A stretch of 35,195 bases of DNA from Caldifarciminota bacterium (GTDB lineage Bacteria; Hydrothermota; Hydrothermia; Hydrothermales; JAJRUZ01): positions 1-35,195 of the forward strand of contig JAJRUZ010000054.1 in NCBI GenBank assembly GCA_024277525.1, given 5' to 3'. The position numbers and the translations under genes were made by a program. Shown here in pieces: positions 181 to 34,795 of the stretch. Positions within the stretch are counted from its first letter, which is position 1; every line of letters starts with the position of its first letter. Under the pieces are notes generated by a model. The model did no database searches. It saw only the letters and a list, made by a program, of their open reading frames with translations, and had not been told where the DNA came from.

Positions 181-201
181 TTAAAGGTTCCATTCCTTTA
201 A
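181..201 (+). promoter_or_regulatory. T-arm-like leader hairpin before the repeat protein
   Basis: This is a perfect 7-bp stem TTAAAGG/CCTTTAA closing a 7-nt loop TTCCATT. The core reads GTTCCATTC, which fits the tRNA T-arm rule GTTCNANNC. It lies 11 nt after the tRNA-Pro 3' end and before the Shine-Dalgarno sequence of the next gene. It is the best-paired member of the hairpin family seen again at 4496, 9631 and 17502 (minus). Confidence 0.55.
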
Positions 202-8032: not shown

Positions 8033-8143
8033 TGTGGAAAAGGCGGATTTTGAAAGATGTGGAAATTTTTCGGGTGCATCAAAGATTTGCCTGTGCCACA
8101 GGTGTTTTTTATATAAATAAGGTGTGGAAAATTTTGTGGAAAA
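8033..8143 (+). other. DnaA-box cluster upstream of dnaA (origin part 1)
   Basis: Four same-orientation boxes are visible: TGTGGAAAA at 8033-8041, TGTGGAAAT at 8058-8066, TGTGGAAAA at 8123-8131 and TGTGGAAAA at 8135-8143. The last two are spaced 12 bases start to start. The reverse form TTTTCCACA differs in one base from the E. coli consensus TTATCCACA. The cluster probably serves origin function and DnaA autoregulation. Confidence 0.75.
8090..8110 (+). terminator. Terminator-like hairpin in the dnaA leader
   Basis: CCTGT-GCC-ACAGG (8090-8102) forms a compact stem and is followed within two bases by a run of six T. It could end read-through from the recA operon or attenuate the dnaA leader. 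The stem is short, and the surrounding GTGCCAC bases also echo DnaA-box sequence, so an origin role is possible. Confidence 0.4.
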
Positions 8144-8166
8144 CTTAATTTAAAAGGAGGAAAAAG

Positions 8167-9495
8167 ATGAAAAGAAGAAAAACATTATGGGATGAAATAA
8201 ATGAAAAATTAAAAGAAGAACTGTCTGAAAGGCAGTATGGTCTCTGGTTCAAAAGGGTAAAAGGTGGAGACCTGGAGACGGATCATATTCTACGTCTGGA
8301 ATGTGATAATGAATATGTAAAAAGTTTTATAGAAAGGACATACGGTGCTCTTTTAAAAAGGATTTTAACGGATATAGGGTATCCGATGGTTCAGATAAAA
8401 TTTGAGGTTAAAAAAGACGGGGGTCCTAAGGAAGAAATTTTTACAAAAAAGGAAAATAAGATAAAACCGAAGGTGAGTGCTACCGGGCTCCAGGAAAGAT
8501 ATACTTTTGAAAATTTTGTTCCCGGAAAAAACAGTGAAATGGCTTTTTCTGCTGCAAGGGCGGTTGCCTATGCGCCCGGAGAAGAATATAACCCGCTTTT
8601 TATTTACGGAGGAGTGGGACTCGGAAAAACTCACCTTTTACATGCAATAGGAAATGATACTATCAAAAGAAAGAAAAACATAAAAGTTTTACTTATTACA
8701 ACCGAGGAACTCATTTCAAAAATAGTGGATGCCATTCAAAAGAGAAAGCTTAATGAATTCAGGAATAAAATAAGGTCTTTTGACATCCTTTTAATAGACG
8801 ATATCCATTTTCTCTCAGGGACACAATTCATACAGGAAGAACTTTTTCACACATTTAACTCTTTTTATAATGAAAAAAAACAGGTGGTTTTTACCGCAGA
8901 CAGACCTCCTTGGGATTTGGAAAATATTGCTGAAAGACTGGTTGACAGGTTCTCATGGGGACTTGTTACCGATATAAAGCCACCCGAATATGAAACAAGG
9001 CTTGCAATTTTGAAATTAAAAGCTCAGGAAAGGGGACTTGAACTTCCTGATGAGGTATTTGGTCTTATAGCCAGGAATGTGAAAAAGAATGTAAGATCAC
9101 TTGAAAGTTGTATAGTTCGTTTGCACGCAATTTACTCATTAAAAAGAATACCCATAACAGAAGAACTTGCAAAAAAGGAGCTTGCCGATATTTTTTCCTC
9201 TGCCTCTCTAAAAGAACCCGAAGATGTAATTCAATTAATCTCAGAATTTTACAATATCCCTAAAACAGAAATTATGGGAAAAAAGCAAAAAAAGGAACTG
9301 ACACATGCAAGGCATGTTGCAATGTACATAATGAAAAATATTTATGCCATGAAAGTCACCGAAATAGCGAAATTTTTCGGCAGGGATCATACAACGGTTT
9401 TAAATGCAATTCAAAAAATAGAAAAAAGACTCCCGCAAGATGAAAACTTCAAAGAGGAAATAAGAGAAATTGAAAAACTACTCAAATCACTGTGA
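8167..9495 (+). CDS. dnaA: Chromosomal replication initiator DnaA
   Basis: DnaA binds boxes at the origin as an ATP-dependent oligomer and melts the adjacent A+T-rich DNA. The 442-residue protein has an N-terminal DnaB-contact domain (about 1-85), a short linker, then the AAA+ domain with Walker A GGVGLGKT (148-155) and Walker B LLIDDIHF (D211, D212). Domain IV carries the box-binding signature GRDHTTV (405-411). A strong AAAGGAGG site lies 6 bases before ATG 8167. DnaA boxes flank the gene on both sides, and dnaN follows, the classical origin order. Confidence 0.98.
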   Translation: MKRRKTLWDEINEKLKEELSERQYGLWFKRVKGGDLETDHILRLECDNEYVKSFIERTYGALLKRILTDIGYPMVQIKFEVKKDGGPKEEIFTKKENKIKPKVSATGLQERYTFENFVPGKNSEMAFSAARAVAYAPGEEYNPLFIYGGVGLGKTHLLHAIGNDTIKRKKNIKVLLITTEELISKIVDAIQKRKLNEFRNKIRSFDILLIDDIHFLSGTQFIQEELFHTFNSFYNEKKQVVFTADRPPWDLENIAERLVDRFSWGLVTDIKPPEYETRLAILKLKAQERGLELPDEVFGLIARNVKKNVRSLESCIVRLHAIYSLKRIPITEELAKKELADIFSSASLKEPEDVIQLISEFYNIPKTEIMGKKQKKELTHARHVAMYIMKNIYAMKVTEIAKFFGRDHTTVLNAIQKIEKRLPQDENFKEEIREIEKLLKSL

Positions 9496-9512
9496 AAAAT
9501 TCAAAATTTTTA

Positions 9513-9664
9513 TGTGGAAAACTCTTTTACTTAATTTTCCACATAACTTCCACATTAAACTTTTATCTAAAAGGCAACATGATTTTAAATTTCCACAAAC
9601 TTAATATTATAATTAATATATATTTTTTAAAAGGTTCTAATCCTTAAATATCAAATGTGGAAAA
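9513..9664 (+). other. oriC: Probable oriC: DnaA boxes and A+T-rich stretch before dnaN
   Basis: The dnaA-dnaN gap holds boxes at 9513-9521 (TGTGGAAAA, plus), 9535-9543 (TTTTCCACA, i.e. minus), 9546-9554 (weaker, minus), 9589-9597 (ATTTCCACA, minus) and 9656-9664 (TGTGGAAAA, plus). A pure A/T run at 9601-9632 lies next to the 9589 box and is a good candidate unwinding element. The last box overlaps the dnaN start region, so DnaA may also control dnaN. Confidence 0.8.
9631..9645 (+). promoter_or_regulatory. T-arm-like leader hairpin before dnaN
   Basis: AAGG-TTCTAAT-CCTT has a 4-bp stem and 7-nt loop; the core GTTCTAATC fits GTTCNANNC. Possible -10 elements TATAAT (9608-9613) and TATATT (9619-9624) lie just upstream, placing the hairpin at or near the dnaN mRNA 5' end. 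Confidence 0.45.
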
Positions 9665-9665
9665 T

Positions 9666-10754
9666 ATGAAATTTAAAATTTTACAAGAGAACTTTTTGAG
9701 ATTGATTGAAAATGTTTATCATGCGATACCCTCACGGGCAGCGCTTCCTATTCTTGAGAGTATCAAAATAGAGACAAAAGGAGAGGAGATTTTTCTTTCT
9801 TCAACAAATTTGAACTTTTCACTTAAAGTGAAAGGCAGAGCAGAAGTTGAAGAAGAAGGAGCCCTGTGTGTTAAAGGCAAAGAATTAAGGGATGTTACCT
9901 CAAGATTAAAAAATGAAAGAATAACAATTGAGAAAAGGGATGAAAGGGGTCTTTTTATAATTACTTCTCATGCAGAGTATAATTTTTTCATTCAGCCTGC
10001 CGAAGATTTTCCTAACATAGAAGAGTTAGAAAACAATGAAAGCATAGAGATAAATTCCAACGATGTAATAGAAGGGGTTGAAAAAATTGCCTTTTGTGTG
10101 GCAAAAAATGACACAAGACAATTTTTAAACAATGTTTTAATGGATATAAGTGGAAATAAATTAACCTTTGTCGGTTCTGATTCACACAAACTCGGACTGT
10201 ATGAGGTAAATGTTGAAAATCAGGGAATAGAGGGACAATTCTTGCTTGATCCAAAAAGTTTTGATTTTTTAAAAAATCAAAAAAATGAAATTATTAAAAT
10301 AATCTTTTCAGAGACAAAAGTTCAGTTTAATTTTAAAGACGGATATGAGATAGTCAGTTTGGTTGACGATAAATATCCTGATTACAGAGCGGTAATTCCC
10401 TCCGAAATGCCTCACAGATTAAAAATAACAAAGGCGGATTTACTTGAAGTTTTAAGAAGATTAAATATATTTACTTCTCCGCCTAATTATCCTGTTCAAT
10501 TTGATTTAGAACAGGGTAATATTCTTATAAAGGCTGTATCCGGAGAAATCGGAGAGGCTGTTGAGAGGATATCCGGATTTTATGAGGGAGACAAAATAGA
10601 AGTCGGGTATAATTGTAATTATTTAATAGATATAGTGCGGCATATAGATGAAGATGTGGTAGAGATAGGGATAACAGGAAGGGAAAGTGCGACGGTGATA
10701 AAAGGAGAGGACGCGGAAAATTATTTATATCTCTTGATGCCGATCAGGATTTAG
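9666..10754 (+). CDS. dnaN: DNA polymerase III beta subunit (sliding clamp)
   Basis: The clamp encircles DNA and tethers the replicative polymerase. The protein has 362 residues from ATG 9666 and the usual opening MKFKILQENF. Three repeated clamp folds are expected, and the protein ends in YLYLLMPIRI, the typical PMRL-type C-terminal region. A GTG at 9657 would add three residues but lies inside a DnaA box, so ATG 9666 is preferred. No clear Shine-Dalgarno sequence precedes it. The gene is followed by a convergent minus-strand cluster. Confidence 0.96.
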   Translation: MKFKILQENFLRLIENVYHAIPSRAALPILESIKIETKGEEIFLSSTNLNFSLKVKGRAEVEEEGALCVKGKELRDVTSRLKNERITIEKRDERGLFIITSHAEYNFFIQPAEDFPNIEELENNESIEINSNDVIEGVEKIAFCVAKNDTRQFLNNVLMDISGNKLTFVGSDSHKLGLYEVNVENQGIEGQFLLDPKSFDFLKNQKNEIIKIIFSETKVQFNFKDGYEIVSLVDDKYPDYRAVIPSEMPHRLKITKADLLEVLRRLNIFTSPPNYPVQFDLEQGNILIKAVSGEIGEAVERISGFYEGDKIEVGYNCNYLIDIVRHIDEDVVEIGITGRESATVIKGEDAENYLYLLMPIRI

Positions 10755-17501: not shown

Positions 17502-17516
17502 CAGGATTGGAACCTG
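17502..17516 (-). promoter_or_regulatory. T-arm-like leader hairpin of the binding-protein/purN/dnaE operon
   Basis: On the minus strand CAGG-TTCCAAT-CCTG has a 4-bp stem and a 7-nt loop; the core GTTCCAATC fits GTTCNANNC. It ends 17 bases before ATG 17484. A weak TAAAAT-type -10 lies shortly upstream, so the hairpin is near the predicted 5' end of the mRNA. Confidence 0.45.
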
Positions 17517-27380: not shown

Positions 27381-29551
27381 GTTCAAAAAAACACATTAAA
27401 ATTTTTCTTGTATATCTTTTATTAAGTATTATTTATTTTATCAAGCCCTTAATAGAAGGGAAATTACTTGCCATAGGTGACGCATTTATAGAGATATTGC
27501 CTCTAAAATATTTTTACAAACATGAATTTCTCAAAGACGGTTTAAATTTATGGATTCCATATTTTTTTCTAGGTATGCCATTTGTCGGGTTATTACAAAC
27601 AGGTGCTTTTTATCCCTTAAATTTCATTTATTTTTTCCTTCCGGTTTCCTATGCATTTAATTTTCTTTTCTTACTTCATTATACATTAGCAGCATTTTTC
27701 ACCTTTGTTTACTTAAAAGAAATAAGTTTGAAAGACTATCCTGCCTTTATAGGGGGATTTTTATTTGGATTCTCTGGCTTTTTAATTCTCCAAAAGACAC
27801 ATATTACCGTTATTAACACTTCTATATGGCTTCCTTTAATCTTATTTCTTTATGAAAAATTAAAAAAAGAAATAAACATTAAATGGAGTATTCTAATAGC
27901 TTTTGTATTGAGTTTACAAATATTTGCAGGACACTTTCAAATGTTTGTTTATTCCTCTATGTTTGTTATTTTATATATATTTTTTTTATTTTTAAAGGTC
28001 AAAAGAAATAAATTTTTGTTTTACAGTTTTTTACCTTTTGTCTTAGCAATTCTTTTATCCTTACCACAGATTTTAAGTTCTTATCAACTTGCTTCTTATT
28101 CAGTCAGAGCTAACTTTCCCTATAGAGTCTTCACTGAGGGTGCATTAAGACCCTATTTTATTATTCAATCTATTTCCCCGTTTATATTCGGAGGAGGCTA
28201 TGCCGGAAAATATTGGGGACCTCAATTTTTAAAAACAACTTCCTGGTTTATCAGTAGTTTTGCTTTTTGTCTTTCCCTTTTCACTTTTTTAAAAATACGT
28301 GATAAAGAACATTATGTTCTATTTTTTGGAATAACCACAGTAATATTCCTCATTTTGGCATTCGGTAAATTTATTCCTATTTATAAATATTTCTATCACT
28401 TACCTGTATATAATAAATTCAGGGGAACTTCAAAACATTTACTCGAGTGCACCTTTGCTATTGTAGTCAGCTTTGCATATGGTTTAGAAAACATCTTATA
28501 TAACAAAGAAAAAAACTATTTAAGGGAATTTTTAAAATTTTTTATGGCGTTTATTTTAATATTTATATCAATTTTATTTATTATTTCCTCATTCCTTTCT
28601 GATGATAAATTTAAGATACTTATATTTACAGAAGAATCAAATAAAATATTATTAAATTACTTTTCTATTAGTCTAAAAAATAAAGCCTTTATTATACCAT
28701 TTAGTTTTATGATGTTATACATGATGGTTCTCGGATTTATAAAATTGAAAAAAAGAATTTCATTAATGTCTTTTTTATTTATAATCATTTTTACAGAAGC
28801 CTTTGTTTTTGGATACTTTCACGAAAAAGATTTAATTAGAGCGAAAGTTAAAGATATTCCGCAAATTTTTGTAGAAAAACCAAATAAATATTTTCTGAAT
28901 TACTTAAGAAAAGACACTTCTATTTTTCGAGCATTAATAATCGAAGAAAATCTATTTCCTTTATTTAATATATTTGCTCAAATAAATTATCTTAATGGAT
29001 ATGACCCCTTAATTATTAAAAATTTTCATAAATTATTAGATATTCGTAAAAATGGAGTTGCTGATTTTAGATTAATATCAAATAACATTCTAATAAGTCT
29101 ATTGAATGTAAAATATATTATTGTTAAGAAAGAGTTAGAAAAATTGATTGAAAATATCACCTATGTTGACACACCGAGTAAGAAAACAATCCTTGAAATT
29201 CCCTATATTATACACTTCCAAGCTGTCTCAAAAGACACTCCTCATAAAATTAAAAGAGGAATTAGGATTAAAGCAAATACTTTCTACTTAATATCTGCTG
29301 AGATAAAAGGAAAGGCTAACGGAGCTTTTACGATAGACCTTTTTAAATGGAGACCACATTATGATAATAAAGAACAACAAATGTGGATCCCTTCAGATAG
29401 AATTAAAGAGGATTCCTTTACATTATTTTTCAAAATAATAAACACAGGAGAAAATGCTCCTCAAAAAGTATGGTTAAGAATTATCAGTTATTCTACAACT
29501 CCCCTTGAAGTCAAAAATATAAAATTAATTGAATTAGGAACAAAATACTAA
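27377..29551 (+). CDS. YfhO-like membrane glycosyltransferase, N-terminal part (interrupted gene)
   Basis: This 724-residue piece has about 11-12 membrane helices. The GT-C-like first loop contains IGDAFIEILPLKYFYKHEF and later SISPFIFGGGYAG and HLPVYNKFRGTSK, typical of YfhO proteins. A soluble beta-rich segment (about 630-720) follows, and then TAA 29549-29551. The same frame continues after this stop with the rest of YfhO, so the gene is cut by one nonsense codon. YfhO proteins move a sugar from the lipid carrier to an extracellular acceptor. ATG 27377 overlaps the GT2 stop. Confidence 0.82.
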   Translation: MSSKKHIKIFLVYLLLSIIYFIKPLIEGKLLAIGDAFIEILPLKYFYKHEFLKDGLNLWIPYFFLGMPFVGLLQTGAFYPLNFIYFFLPVSYAFNFLFLLHYTLAAFFTFVYLKEISLKDYPAFIGGFLFGFSGFLILQKTHITVINTSIWLPLILFLYEKLKKEINIKWSILIAFVLSLQIFAGHFQMFVYSSMFVILYIFFLFLKVKRNKFLFYSFLPFVLAILLSLPQILSSYQLASYSVRANFPYRVFTEGALRPYFIIQSISPFIFGGGYAGKYWGPQFLKTTSWFISSFAFCLSLFTFLKIRDKEHYVLFFGITTVIFLILAFGKFIPIYKYFYHLPVYNKFRGTSKHLLECTFAIVVSFAYGLENILYNKEKNYLREFLKFFMAFILIFISILFIISSFLSDDKFKILIFTEESNKILLNYFSISLKNKAFIIPFSFMMLYMMVLGFIKLKKRISLMSFLFIIIFTEAFVFGYFHEKDLIRAKVKDIPQIFVEKPNKYFLNYLRKDTSIFRALIIEENLFPLFNIFAQINYLNGYDPLIIKNFHKLLDIRKNGVADFRLISNNILISLLNVKYIIVKKELEKLIENITYVDTPSKKTILEIPYIIHFQAVSKDTPHKIKRGIRIKANTFYLISAEIKGKANGAFTIDLFKWRPHYDNKEQQMWIPSDRIKEDSFTLFFKIINTGENAPQKVWLRIISYSTTPLEVKNIKLIELGTKY

Positions 29552-32134: not shown

Positions 32135-34795
32135 ATGAAATGGTCAATAACATCATTATTTATATTCTTATATGCTTGTATTTATGTTCATCATTATCAG
32201 CATCCGCCTCTACCTTCCAAACAAGTAAAAAAGCCTGAGAAAAAACCGTTTAAACCTTGGAATGAAGTCCTTAAAGATACAAAGCTGATAGAAGGATTTT
32301 TAAAACTTCATCAAAAAAGGGATAACACCCTTTATCTTGAACTTTCGCCATCTGATTTTGAAAAAGATTTTGCTCTTGTCATGCATCTATCATACGGGCT
32401 CGGTGATTTTAATGTAATAGAAGGTCTCCCTTTAAGTGATACAAGGCTTTTAAGATTCAAAAGAATAGGAGATGAAGTCTTTCTGATTCACAGGAATGCA
32501 AGATTTAAGGCTGAAAGAGAGGAATTCAAGCATTTTATTGAGGAAAATATAGGACATTCCGTAATAGGTGTTTTCAAAATAGAAAGTGAAAATGAGAAAA
32601 ACAAACATATTTTAATAAATATCACGGACTTTCTTGTTTCCGACTATCCTTCTCTTTCAAACTGGTTAAAGATTTATTACGGAAACAAACCCGTAGTCTT
32701 TGATAAAAAAAGAAGTATAGTTTATAAAGTTAAGAATTTTCCTAAGAACACGGAAATAGATGTTCTTTTGAGTTATAAAGCTCAGGAATATCCCGCTTTC
32801 GGAGGAGAGGGGGTTTCCGATTACAGGTTTTTAACAGTGGGAGTCAGATTTTCATTTTTTGCCTTGCCTGAGAAACCGATGAGACCGAGATATGCTGATG
32901 AAAGAGTAGGATATTTTTTAACAGCAATTATGGATTTTGAAAGAGAAAAAGAGGAAACTCCTTTTATAAGACTCATTCAGAGATGGAGACTTGAAAAGAA
33001 AGATAATTCAAAGGAATTATCCGAACCTGTTAAACCCATTGTTTTTTATTTAGATAAAAGCATTCCGCAAGAATACAAAAAATATGTAAAGGAGGGGATT
33101 CTTGCATGGAATAAGGCTTTTGAAAGAGCAGGCTTCAAAAATGCGATAGTAGTTAAGGACGCCCCTGATGACCCTAACTGGGATCCCGAAGATATAAGGT
33201 ATTCAACAATAAGATGGGTATCCGCAAGAAGAATGGGATTTGCAATAGGTCTATCACAAGTTGACCCCAGAACAGGCGAAATTTTGAATGCGGATATATT
33301 GATATCAGCAAGTTTTGTGAGAGGCTGGTTGTATGATTATCAGGAATTGGTAGATCCTTTGAAAATCGAAAAAGAATTTGAAAGAATCGAAAGATTAAAA
33401 GAGGCTCTTCCGCCCGAATTGGAACATAAACTATGCTTTTATGAAACGGGTTTATCACATCAGATAGGATTTCAGTATGTATTTTTGAAAGCATACGGTT
33501 TGATTAAAGATGATAAAGAATTTCCCGAGGAGTTTATAGGAGATGCTATAAGAGACCTTGTGATGCATGAAGTAGGACACACACTCGGGCTGAGGCACAA
33601 TTTTAAATCCTCTGCTGCGGTTAAATATGAATTTTTAAATGACACCTCTTTTACACGAAAATATGGAGTAAGTGTATCTGTGATGGACTACACTCCTGTC
33701 AATGTCTCCAAGGATCCTAAAAAGCAAGGAGATTACTGGAATAAAACGGTAGGAGAATATGACAAATGGGCTATAATGTACGGATATGCACCCGTTTATA
33801 AACAAAAAGAAAATGAACCCTTTAAAATGAAAGGGGAATTAATAACTGATCCCGAAGAGGAATTTAAATATCTCAAAAAAATAGCAAAATTAAATACAGA
33901 ACCCCTTCATGTTTACGGAACGGATGAAGACGCAGGATATACAATGGGAGTTGATCCTTTGACAAACAGATGGGATTTGGGTTCTGACCCTTTAAAATAT
34001 GCTGAGGAGAGGGCTGAGATAGTAGAAAAAATTATTCCGAAACTTGAAAAAACTTTAATTAAAGAAGATGAAAGTTATCTCAGATTAAGAAGTGCATTTA
34101 TCAGGCTCATTTATGAAAGGCTTATATCATCAATTCCGCTTGTGAAATTCATAGGAGGGGTTTATTTTAACAGATTCCACAAAGGAGACCCTGAACCCCC
34201 TCTTTCACCCGTTCCTTCTGAAAAGCAGAGGAAAGCACTTGATTTTTTAATTAAGAAGATTTTCAATAAAAATGCTTTTAAATTTGATAAAGACCTTTTG
34301 AACAAACTTGCACCCAATAGATGGGCACACTGGGGCATGTGGAGTCAATTTTATCCCACCGATTTTCCTATTCATAATTATGTTATGCTTGTCCACAGGG
34401 TTATTATCAATTTACTTTTCACTACCGAGAGATTAAGGAGAATAATAGATAATGAAATAAGGAGTTCAAAGCCCTTCAAATTGAGTGAGCTATTTGAAAA
34501 TGTCACCTACGCTGTGTGGGAGGAAATAATGGGTAAAAATGTTATGAACATAAATTCTTTCAGAAGGAATCTTCAGAGAATATATATTGATAAATTATCG
34601 GATATTCTTTTGAGTAAGAATTATCCAGGTGATGCAAAATCTTTATCCAGATACGAACTTGAGAAAATATATAAAAAAATTGATATTGCTTTAAAACACG
34701 GGAAAATTGATTTATATACAAAGGCGCATTTAAAAGAGATAAGAGAGAAAATCAAAAGAGTTCTTGAAGCATCAATTTCTATAATTATAAAATAA
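32135..34795 (+). CDS. Zinc-dependent metalloprotease (DUF5117-type), probable lipoprotein
   Basis: This 886-residue exported protease has a short hydrophobic N-terminus ending LYAC (C15), which suggests a lipoprotein, though Y at -2 is not ideal. An N-terminal domain (about 70-130, with FALVMHLSYGLGDF) matches the DUF5117 layout. The metzincin-like zinc site is HEVGHTLGLRH (478-488), followed by a Met-turn candidate at M517 (SVMDYTP). The C-terminal third is helical and basic. It starts 18 bases after the DUF1015 stop with no clear ribosome site. Its substrate is unknown; a role in envelope protein processing or nutrient digestion is inference. Confidence 0.88.
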   Translation: MKWSITSLFIFLYACIYVHHYQHPPLPSKQVKKPEKKPFKPWNEVLKDTKLIEGFLKLHQKRDNTLYLELSPSDFEKDFALVMHLSYGLGDFNVIEGLPLSDTRLLRFKRIGDEVFLIHRNARFKAEREEFKHFIEENIGHSVIGVFKIESENEKNKHILINITDFLVSDYPSLSNWLKIYYGNKPVVFDKKRSIVYKVKNFPKNTEIDVLLSYKAQEYPAFGGEGVSDYRFLTVGVRFSFFALPEKPMRPRYADERVGYFLTAIMDFEREKEETPFIRLIQRWRLEKKDNSKELSEPVKPIVFYLDKSIPQEYKKYVKEGILAWNKAFERAGFKNAIVVKDAPDDPNWDPEDIRYSTIRWVSARRMGFAIGLSQVDPRTGEILNADILISASFVRGWLYDYQELVDPLKIEKEFERIERLKEALPPELEHKLCFYETGLSHQIGFQYVFLKAYGLIKDDKEFPEEFIGDAIRDLVMHEVGHTLGLRHNFKSSAAVKYEFLNDTSFTRKYGVSVSVMDYTPVNVSKDPKKQGDYWNKTVGEYDKWAIMYGYAPVYKQKENEPFKMKGELITDPEEEFKYLKKIAKLNTEPLHVYGTDEDAGYTMGVDPLTNRWDLGSDPLKYAEERAEIVEKIIPKLEKTLIKEDESYLRLRSAFIRLIYERLISSIPLVKFIGGVYFNRFHKGDPEPPLSPVPSEKQRKALDFLIKKIFNKNAFKFDKDLLNKLAPNRWAHWGMWSQFYPTDFPIHNYVMLVHRVIINLLFTTERLRRIIDNEIRSSKPFKLSELFENVTYAVWEEIMGKNVMNINSFRRNLQRIYIDKLSDILLSKNYPGDAKSLSRYELEKIYKKIDIALKHGKIDLYTKAHLKEIREKIKRVLEASISIIIK

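Follow-up and report, generated by a model that had tools for sequence, protein, structure and literature searches.

A probable bipartite replication origin around dnaA in an uncultured relative of Hydrothermus pacificus, with a tandem DnaA-box pair shared with mraZ

The dnaA locus and its DnaA boxes

The window, that is, the whole stretch of 35,195 bases analyzed here, is contig C44 of a 2.34-Mb genome (G000) in 102 contigs. In the window, recA and fabF precede dnaA and dnaN, all on the same strand. A large Met-zincin-type metalloprotease gene with the domains DUF4953, DUF5117 and DUF5118 is also found at 32135–34795. Together with G001, G002 and G003, whose DnaA proteins are 65–69% identical, the genome constitutes family f1. 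Candidatus Hydrothermus pacificus (G004, contig MTOH01000006.1), assigned to Caldifarciminota by NCBI and formerly placed in WOR-3, belongs to the same order, with a DnaA that is 44% identical. In most relatives the true dnaA was recovered by a whole-genome search. The features of the locus are as follows.

8033–8041, plus strand: DnaA box TGTGGAAAA, upstream 1; not conserved in relatives
8058–8066, plus strand: DnaA box TGTGGAAAT, upstream A; precedes box B by 65 bases, kept in both family f1 and family f2
8123–8131, plus strand: DnaA box TGTGGAAAA, upstream B; first member of a 12-base tandem pair
8135–8143, plus strand: DnaA box TGTGGAAAA, upstream C; second member of the 12-base tandem pair
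8167–9495, plus strand: dnaA, replication initiator, 442 aa; TIGR00362, E 4.8e-141, domain IV DHTTV signature intact
9513–9521, plus strand: DnaA box TGTGGAAAA, downstream 1; conserved in G001 and G003
9535–9543, minus strand: DnaA box TGTGGAAAA, downstream 2; conserved in family f1
9546–9554, minus strand: degenerate DnaA box TGTGGAAGT, downstream 3; not conserved in relatives
9589–9597, minus strand: DnaA box TGTGGAAAT, downstream 4; probable anchor box beside the unwinding element, aligned in all f1 origins
9598–9632, no strand: probable DNA unwinding element, next to box 9589–9597; aligned across f1
9656–9664, plus strand: DnaA box TGTGGAAAA, downstream 5; ends just 5' of the dnaN ATG, not conserved
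9666–10754, plus strand: dnaN, DNA polymerase III sliding clamp (ATG at 9666); TIGR00663, E 2e-64

The preliminary description of this DNA had placed four plus-strand boxes 5' of dnaA and five boxes of mixed orientation between dnaA and dnaN, and all nine were found where it had put them. It had also asked whether the box is equally dense elsewhere, which is not the case. Exact TGTGGAAAA has 91 copies in the genome, 6 of them in these 1,632 bp and 85 elsewhere; the latter give an expectation of 0.059 per 1632 bp and a Poisson P(≥6) of about 6e-11. The exact box is absent from the rest of the 35-kb window and reaches at most two copies per 1.6 kb anywhere else in the genome.

The box form TTTTCCACA is not new, as it is the usual form in cyanobacteria: it has been described as the species-specific box of Cyanothece, Anabaena and Synechococcus, where it is bound by DnaA (PMC4674748). 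Cyanobacteria are, however, an unrelated lineage, and the description of the Cyanothece origin places it beside the dnaN start and does not present it as a pair of clusters flanking dnaA (PMC4674748).

Conserved layout, unwinding element and strand asymmetry

Three upstream boxes on the same strand, spaced by exactly 65 and 12 bases, recur in all four f1 genomes and in Candidatus Hydrothermus pacificus, while the sequence between them has diverged. In the ungapped upstream block of G000, G001, G002 and G004, 21 of 27 columns are invariant within the boxes, versus 10 of 72 outside them. A genome from another family of the same class (G031) has an upstream spacing of 65/11. Downstream of dnaA, minus-strand boxes lie at about +40 and at +82 to +94 from the stop codon in all f1 genomes, and the second is followed by an A/T tract that aligns across the family. 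The dnaA locus of Candidatus Hydrothermus pacificus thus has the same 65/12 upstream layout as the window, but its upstream boxes are TGTGGATAA and its downstream box is followed by a clear 7-unit run of DnaA-trios.

The 32-base pure A/T run reported in the preliminary description (9601–9632) was confirmed exactly, and no other in the window is as long (the next, at 27966, has 31 bases); given the A/T-rich background, its length alone is unremarkable. In the basal unwinding system, a DnaA box is followed by a short spacer and then by three or more NAN trios, which lie within 16 bp of the box (PMC8287927); the window has the same orientation of box and A/T tract. Trios were read as 5'-box-spacer-(NTN)n-3' on the plus strand of the dnaA–dnaN gap. 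Runs beside a box in this gap reach 7 units in G004, G011 and G019 and 6 units in G014, G016 and G031, with shuffle p values of 0.0055–0.047 for these sister lineages. In the window, box 9589–9597 is followed, after a spacer of 3, by three trios, a run that formally reaches the published minimum but is matched by shuffled sequences (p=0.66); the claim of a DnaA-trio element was dropped for the window. Trio runs within family f1 were likewise not above chance in the shuffle comparison, so the trio signature is faded in this family. The A/T element of the window nevertheless aligns with the 7-unit trio run of Candidatus Hydrothermus pacificus. By alignment, the probable place of the unwinding element is the dnaA–dnaN gap, at the A/T tract 9598–9632.

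A cumulative GC-skew minimum lying elsewhere had been named as an outcome that would speak against an origin. The window's own contig of 35 kb is too short to decide this, and its raw cumulative skew minimum, 9.2 kb after dnaA, is confounded by the minus-strand genes found there (dnaE and its neighbors). The dnaA-bearing contigs of G001 (146 kb), G002 (287 kb), G003 (180 kb) and G004 (185 kb) were analyzed instead. Third-position GC skew was compared to the left and right of dnaA within plus and minus genes separately, so that gene direction does not confound the comparison, and a step was fitted in a weighted model with contig and direction effects. Steps at dnaA were obtained with F=45.5 in G002, 50.9 in G001 and 31.4 in G003; pooled over these f1 relatives the step is 0.22 (F=129) and runs from low to high, as expected of an origin. 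The differences between left and right were mostly concordant in plus genes and in minus genes. The best single-contig steps lie at +10 kb (G002), −8 kb (G001) and −8 kb (G003) relative to dnaA, so skew locates the origin only to about 10 kb. At this resolution, the origin proposed in the preliminary description withstands the check in three same-family contigs. G004 shows a weak step at dnaA (F=4.5), its best step being 54 kb from the gene. Cumulative minima at four-fold sites were also tried; they spread from −57 kb to 0 and were set aside as less stable than the step fit.

A bipartite origin and its alternatives

Taken together, the dnaA locus is very probably the chromosome origin oriC, in bipartite form and with unwinding in the dnaA–dnaN gap. 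DnaA-box clusters occupy two intergenic regions with dnaA between them, which agrees with the preliminary description and with the definition used for Bacillus subtilis, whose bipartite origin has the same arrangement (PMC5295017); a box followed by an A/T run is aligned across f1, and the skew switch lies within about 10 kb in three family members, though it is weak in G004. By homology with known systems, DnaA-ATP would bind the tandem plus-strand boxes 5' of dnaA and, in the dnaA–dnaN gap, the boxes of mixed orientation, and would spread from box 9589–9597 onto the adjoining A/T tract 9598–9632, melting it. The opened tract would then allow helicase loading and bidirectional replication. 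DnaA might plausibly bridge the clusters into a loop around dnaA, as it does in Bacillus subtilis (PMC5295017). The upstream cluster probably also serves DnaA autoregulation, since the tandem pair lies 24–44 bases 5' of the dnaA start codon. Around dnaA, sigma-70-like matches did not exceed the frequency seen in shuffled sequences.

Compared with known bipartite origins in a dnaA–dnaN context, the window shares the two dnaA-flanking clusters and the probable unwinding element in the dnaA–dnaN gap. It differs in its boxes, which are TTTTCCACA and not TTATCCACA, in the rigid 65/12 upstream triplet and, for its family, in a trio run not above chance. In Helicobacter pylori, looping between the parts of oriC has been shown; box sequence and gene context differ there from those of the window. 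The oriC of this Gram-negative bacterium is, like that of the window, a two-part origin (cited in PMC5295017).

Three other explanations of the locus were considered. Mere chance would have A-rich 9-mers such as TGTGGAAAA arise from A/T-rich sequence, and the genome-wide count of 91 is indeed only slightly above the 74 of the reversed control; with a local density about 100 times the background, at the Poisson probability given above, and a box spacing conserved across an order, the likelihood of this is practically nil. It is also quite improbable that the box cluster at the dnaA–dnaN operon serves solely for autoregulation or DnaA titration, with replication beginning elsewhere. Such a role has precedent, as DnaA boxes at dnaA promoters mediate autorepression in many bacteria. 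Nor is the tandem pair specific to origins, since it recurs at the mraZ promoter, and oriC of Escherichia coli lies apart from dnaA (PMC5295017). The strand-asymmetry switch within about 10 kb of dnaA in three family members argues against it, as do the maximum of two exact boxes per 1.6 kb elsewhere in the genome and the positional conservation of the downstream cluster and A/T tract, which autoregulation alone would not need.

A closer contender retains the origin but makes it continuous (monopartite): the dnaA–dnaN gap would suffice and the upstream boxes would be purely a promoter element. All unwinding signals are indeed in the downstream gap, the upstream boxes are close to the dnaA start, and in some relatives from the class strict boxes are scarce or absent in one of the two gaps. 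However, the spacing of the upstream cluster is more rigidly conserved than that of the downstream one, and in Bacillus subtilis a layout with two dnaA-flanking clusters has been shown to matter (PMC5295017). A monopartite origin is thus considered possible but rather doubtful, and the bipartite reading is preferred.

A leader hairpin and the tandem pair beyond the origin

The dnaN leader carries a separate genome-wide element that resembles a tRNA T-arm. Three examples lie in the window.

186–196, plus strand: T-arm-like element, leader of ORF 218
9631–9645, plus strand: T-arm-like hairpin AAGG-TTCTAAT-CCTT, dnaN leader
17504–17514, minus strand: T-arm-like element, leader of gene 17484–16522

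The element, GGTTCNANTCC, has a 7-base T-loop TTCNANT closed by G-C and mostly lies 17–29 bases before start codons. Among 50 sites read in the genome, 41 are not tRNA sites, and on the contigs read the element precedes roughly 5–10% of genes, among them (judged from sequence) groES, rpmH, efp and a cold-shock gene. The pattern GGTTCNAATCC occurs 125, 102, 108 and 58 times in G000, G001, G003 and G002, respectively, and just 11–38 times, the tRNA background, in the other 37 relatives (reversed control 0–6). Over 95 sites in leaders, the third stem position is Watson–Crick paired in 74% and the fourth in 56%, against 36% for either in shuffled sequences. No matching Rfam family was found for the element, which looks like an undescribed 5' UTR hairpin specific to family f1. 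A role as a Shine–Dalgarno substitute was considered and found no support: an SD-like word is present in 35 of 94 leaders with the hairpin and in 114 of 445 other genes.

The tandem-pair pattern TGTGGAWAWNNNTGTGGAWAW was searched in 41 genomes. In the roughly 2-Mb genomes G001 and G003 it has exactly two sites, upstream of dnaA and of mraZ. These two are also the only sites in G002, where three boxes stand in tandem at mraZ; the window's genome has two further intergenic sites, on C83 and C97. Pfam matches established the identity of MraZ in G000, G001 and G002. The sites other than dnaA are given below.

G000, C56 (L009:2011–2031), and, in the other f1 genomes, L060, L052 and L059: tandem pair at mraZ, 12-base spacing
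G000, C97 (L011:1932–1952): tandem pair 5 bases before a perfect TTGACA-17-TATAAT promoter; pilin-like gene, named by eye
G000, C83 (L010:2037–2057): tandem pair, followed after about 100 bases by a small gene whose leader is T-arm-like

In all four f1 genomes a perfect sigma-70 promoter of mraZ (TTGACA-17-TATAAT) lies directly 3' of the boxes, at a distance of 15 bases in G000, 5 in G001 and G003, and 14 in G002, so that the offsets differ by about 10 bases, or about one helical turn. GTGGGAA repeats, presumably the operator of MraZ itself, come after the promoter. The conservation of the boxes across the diverged genomes G000–G003 is in keeping with a DnaA-regulated promoter, and no direct report of DnaA boxes at mraZ emerged from literature searches. 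On these grounds, direct control by DnaA of the division and cell-wall (dcw) cluster of family f1, through the 12-base tandem pair used at its own gene, is slightly favored, and a small candidate DnaA regulon that includes the division cluster is likely.

Two further observations concern related sequences. In G014, from a different family of the class, a similar tandem pair (C79:8122, L055) has a promoter region containing TTGACA on one side and, on the other, a gene that by eye resembles ribonucleotide reductase. In the window's genome, C92 (L107:2190–4058) encodes a protein of 622 aa that matches the DnaA-type ATPase domain (PF00308, E 3e-18) but not the DnaA DNA-binding domain; its gene adjoins one for a TPR-repeat-like protein, and similar open frames of about 600 aa are present in G001–G003.

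The dnaA locus provides an evidence-backed origin for an uncultured, little-studied and heat-loving lineage that shares its order with Hydrothermus pacificus. Its rigid 65/12 layout persists across the order even though the box is TTATCCACA in one family and TTTTCCACA in the other, and DnaA-trios have faded in one of the two families; together, these features offer a natural test of what an origin truly requires. The recurrence of the tandem pair at the promoter of the division cluster suggests that replication and division are wired together. If this is true, the origin initiator would be a switch linking initiation to division, and a functional pair at mraZ would tie replication initiation to the division gene cluster in a simple, testable way.
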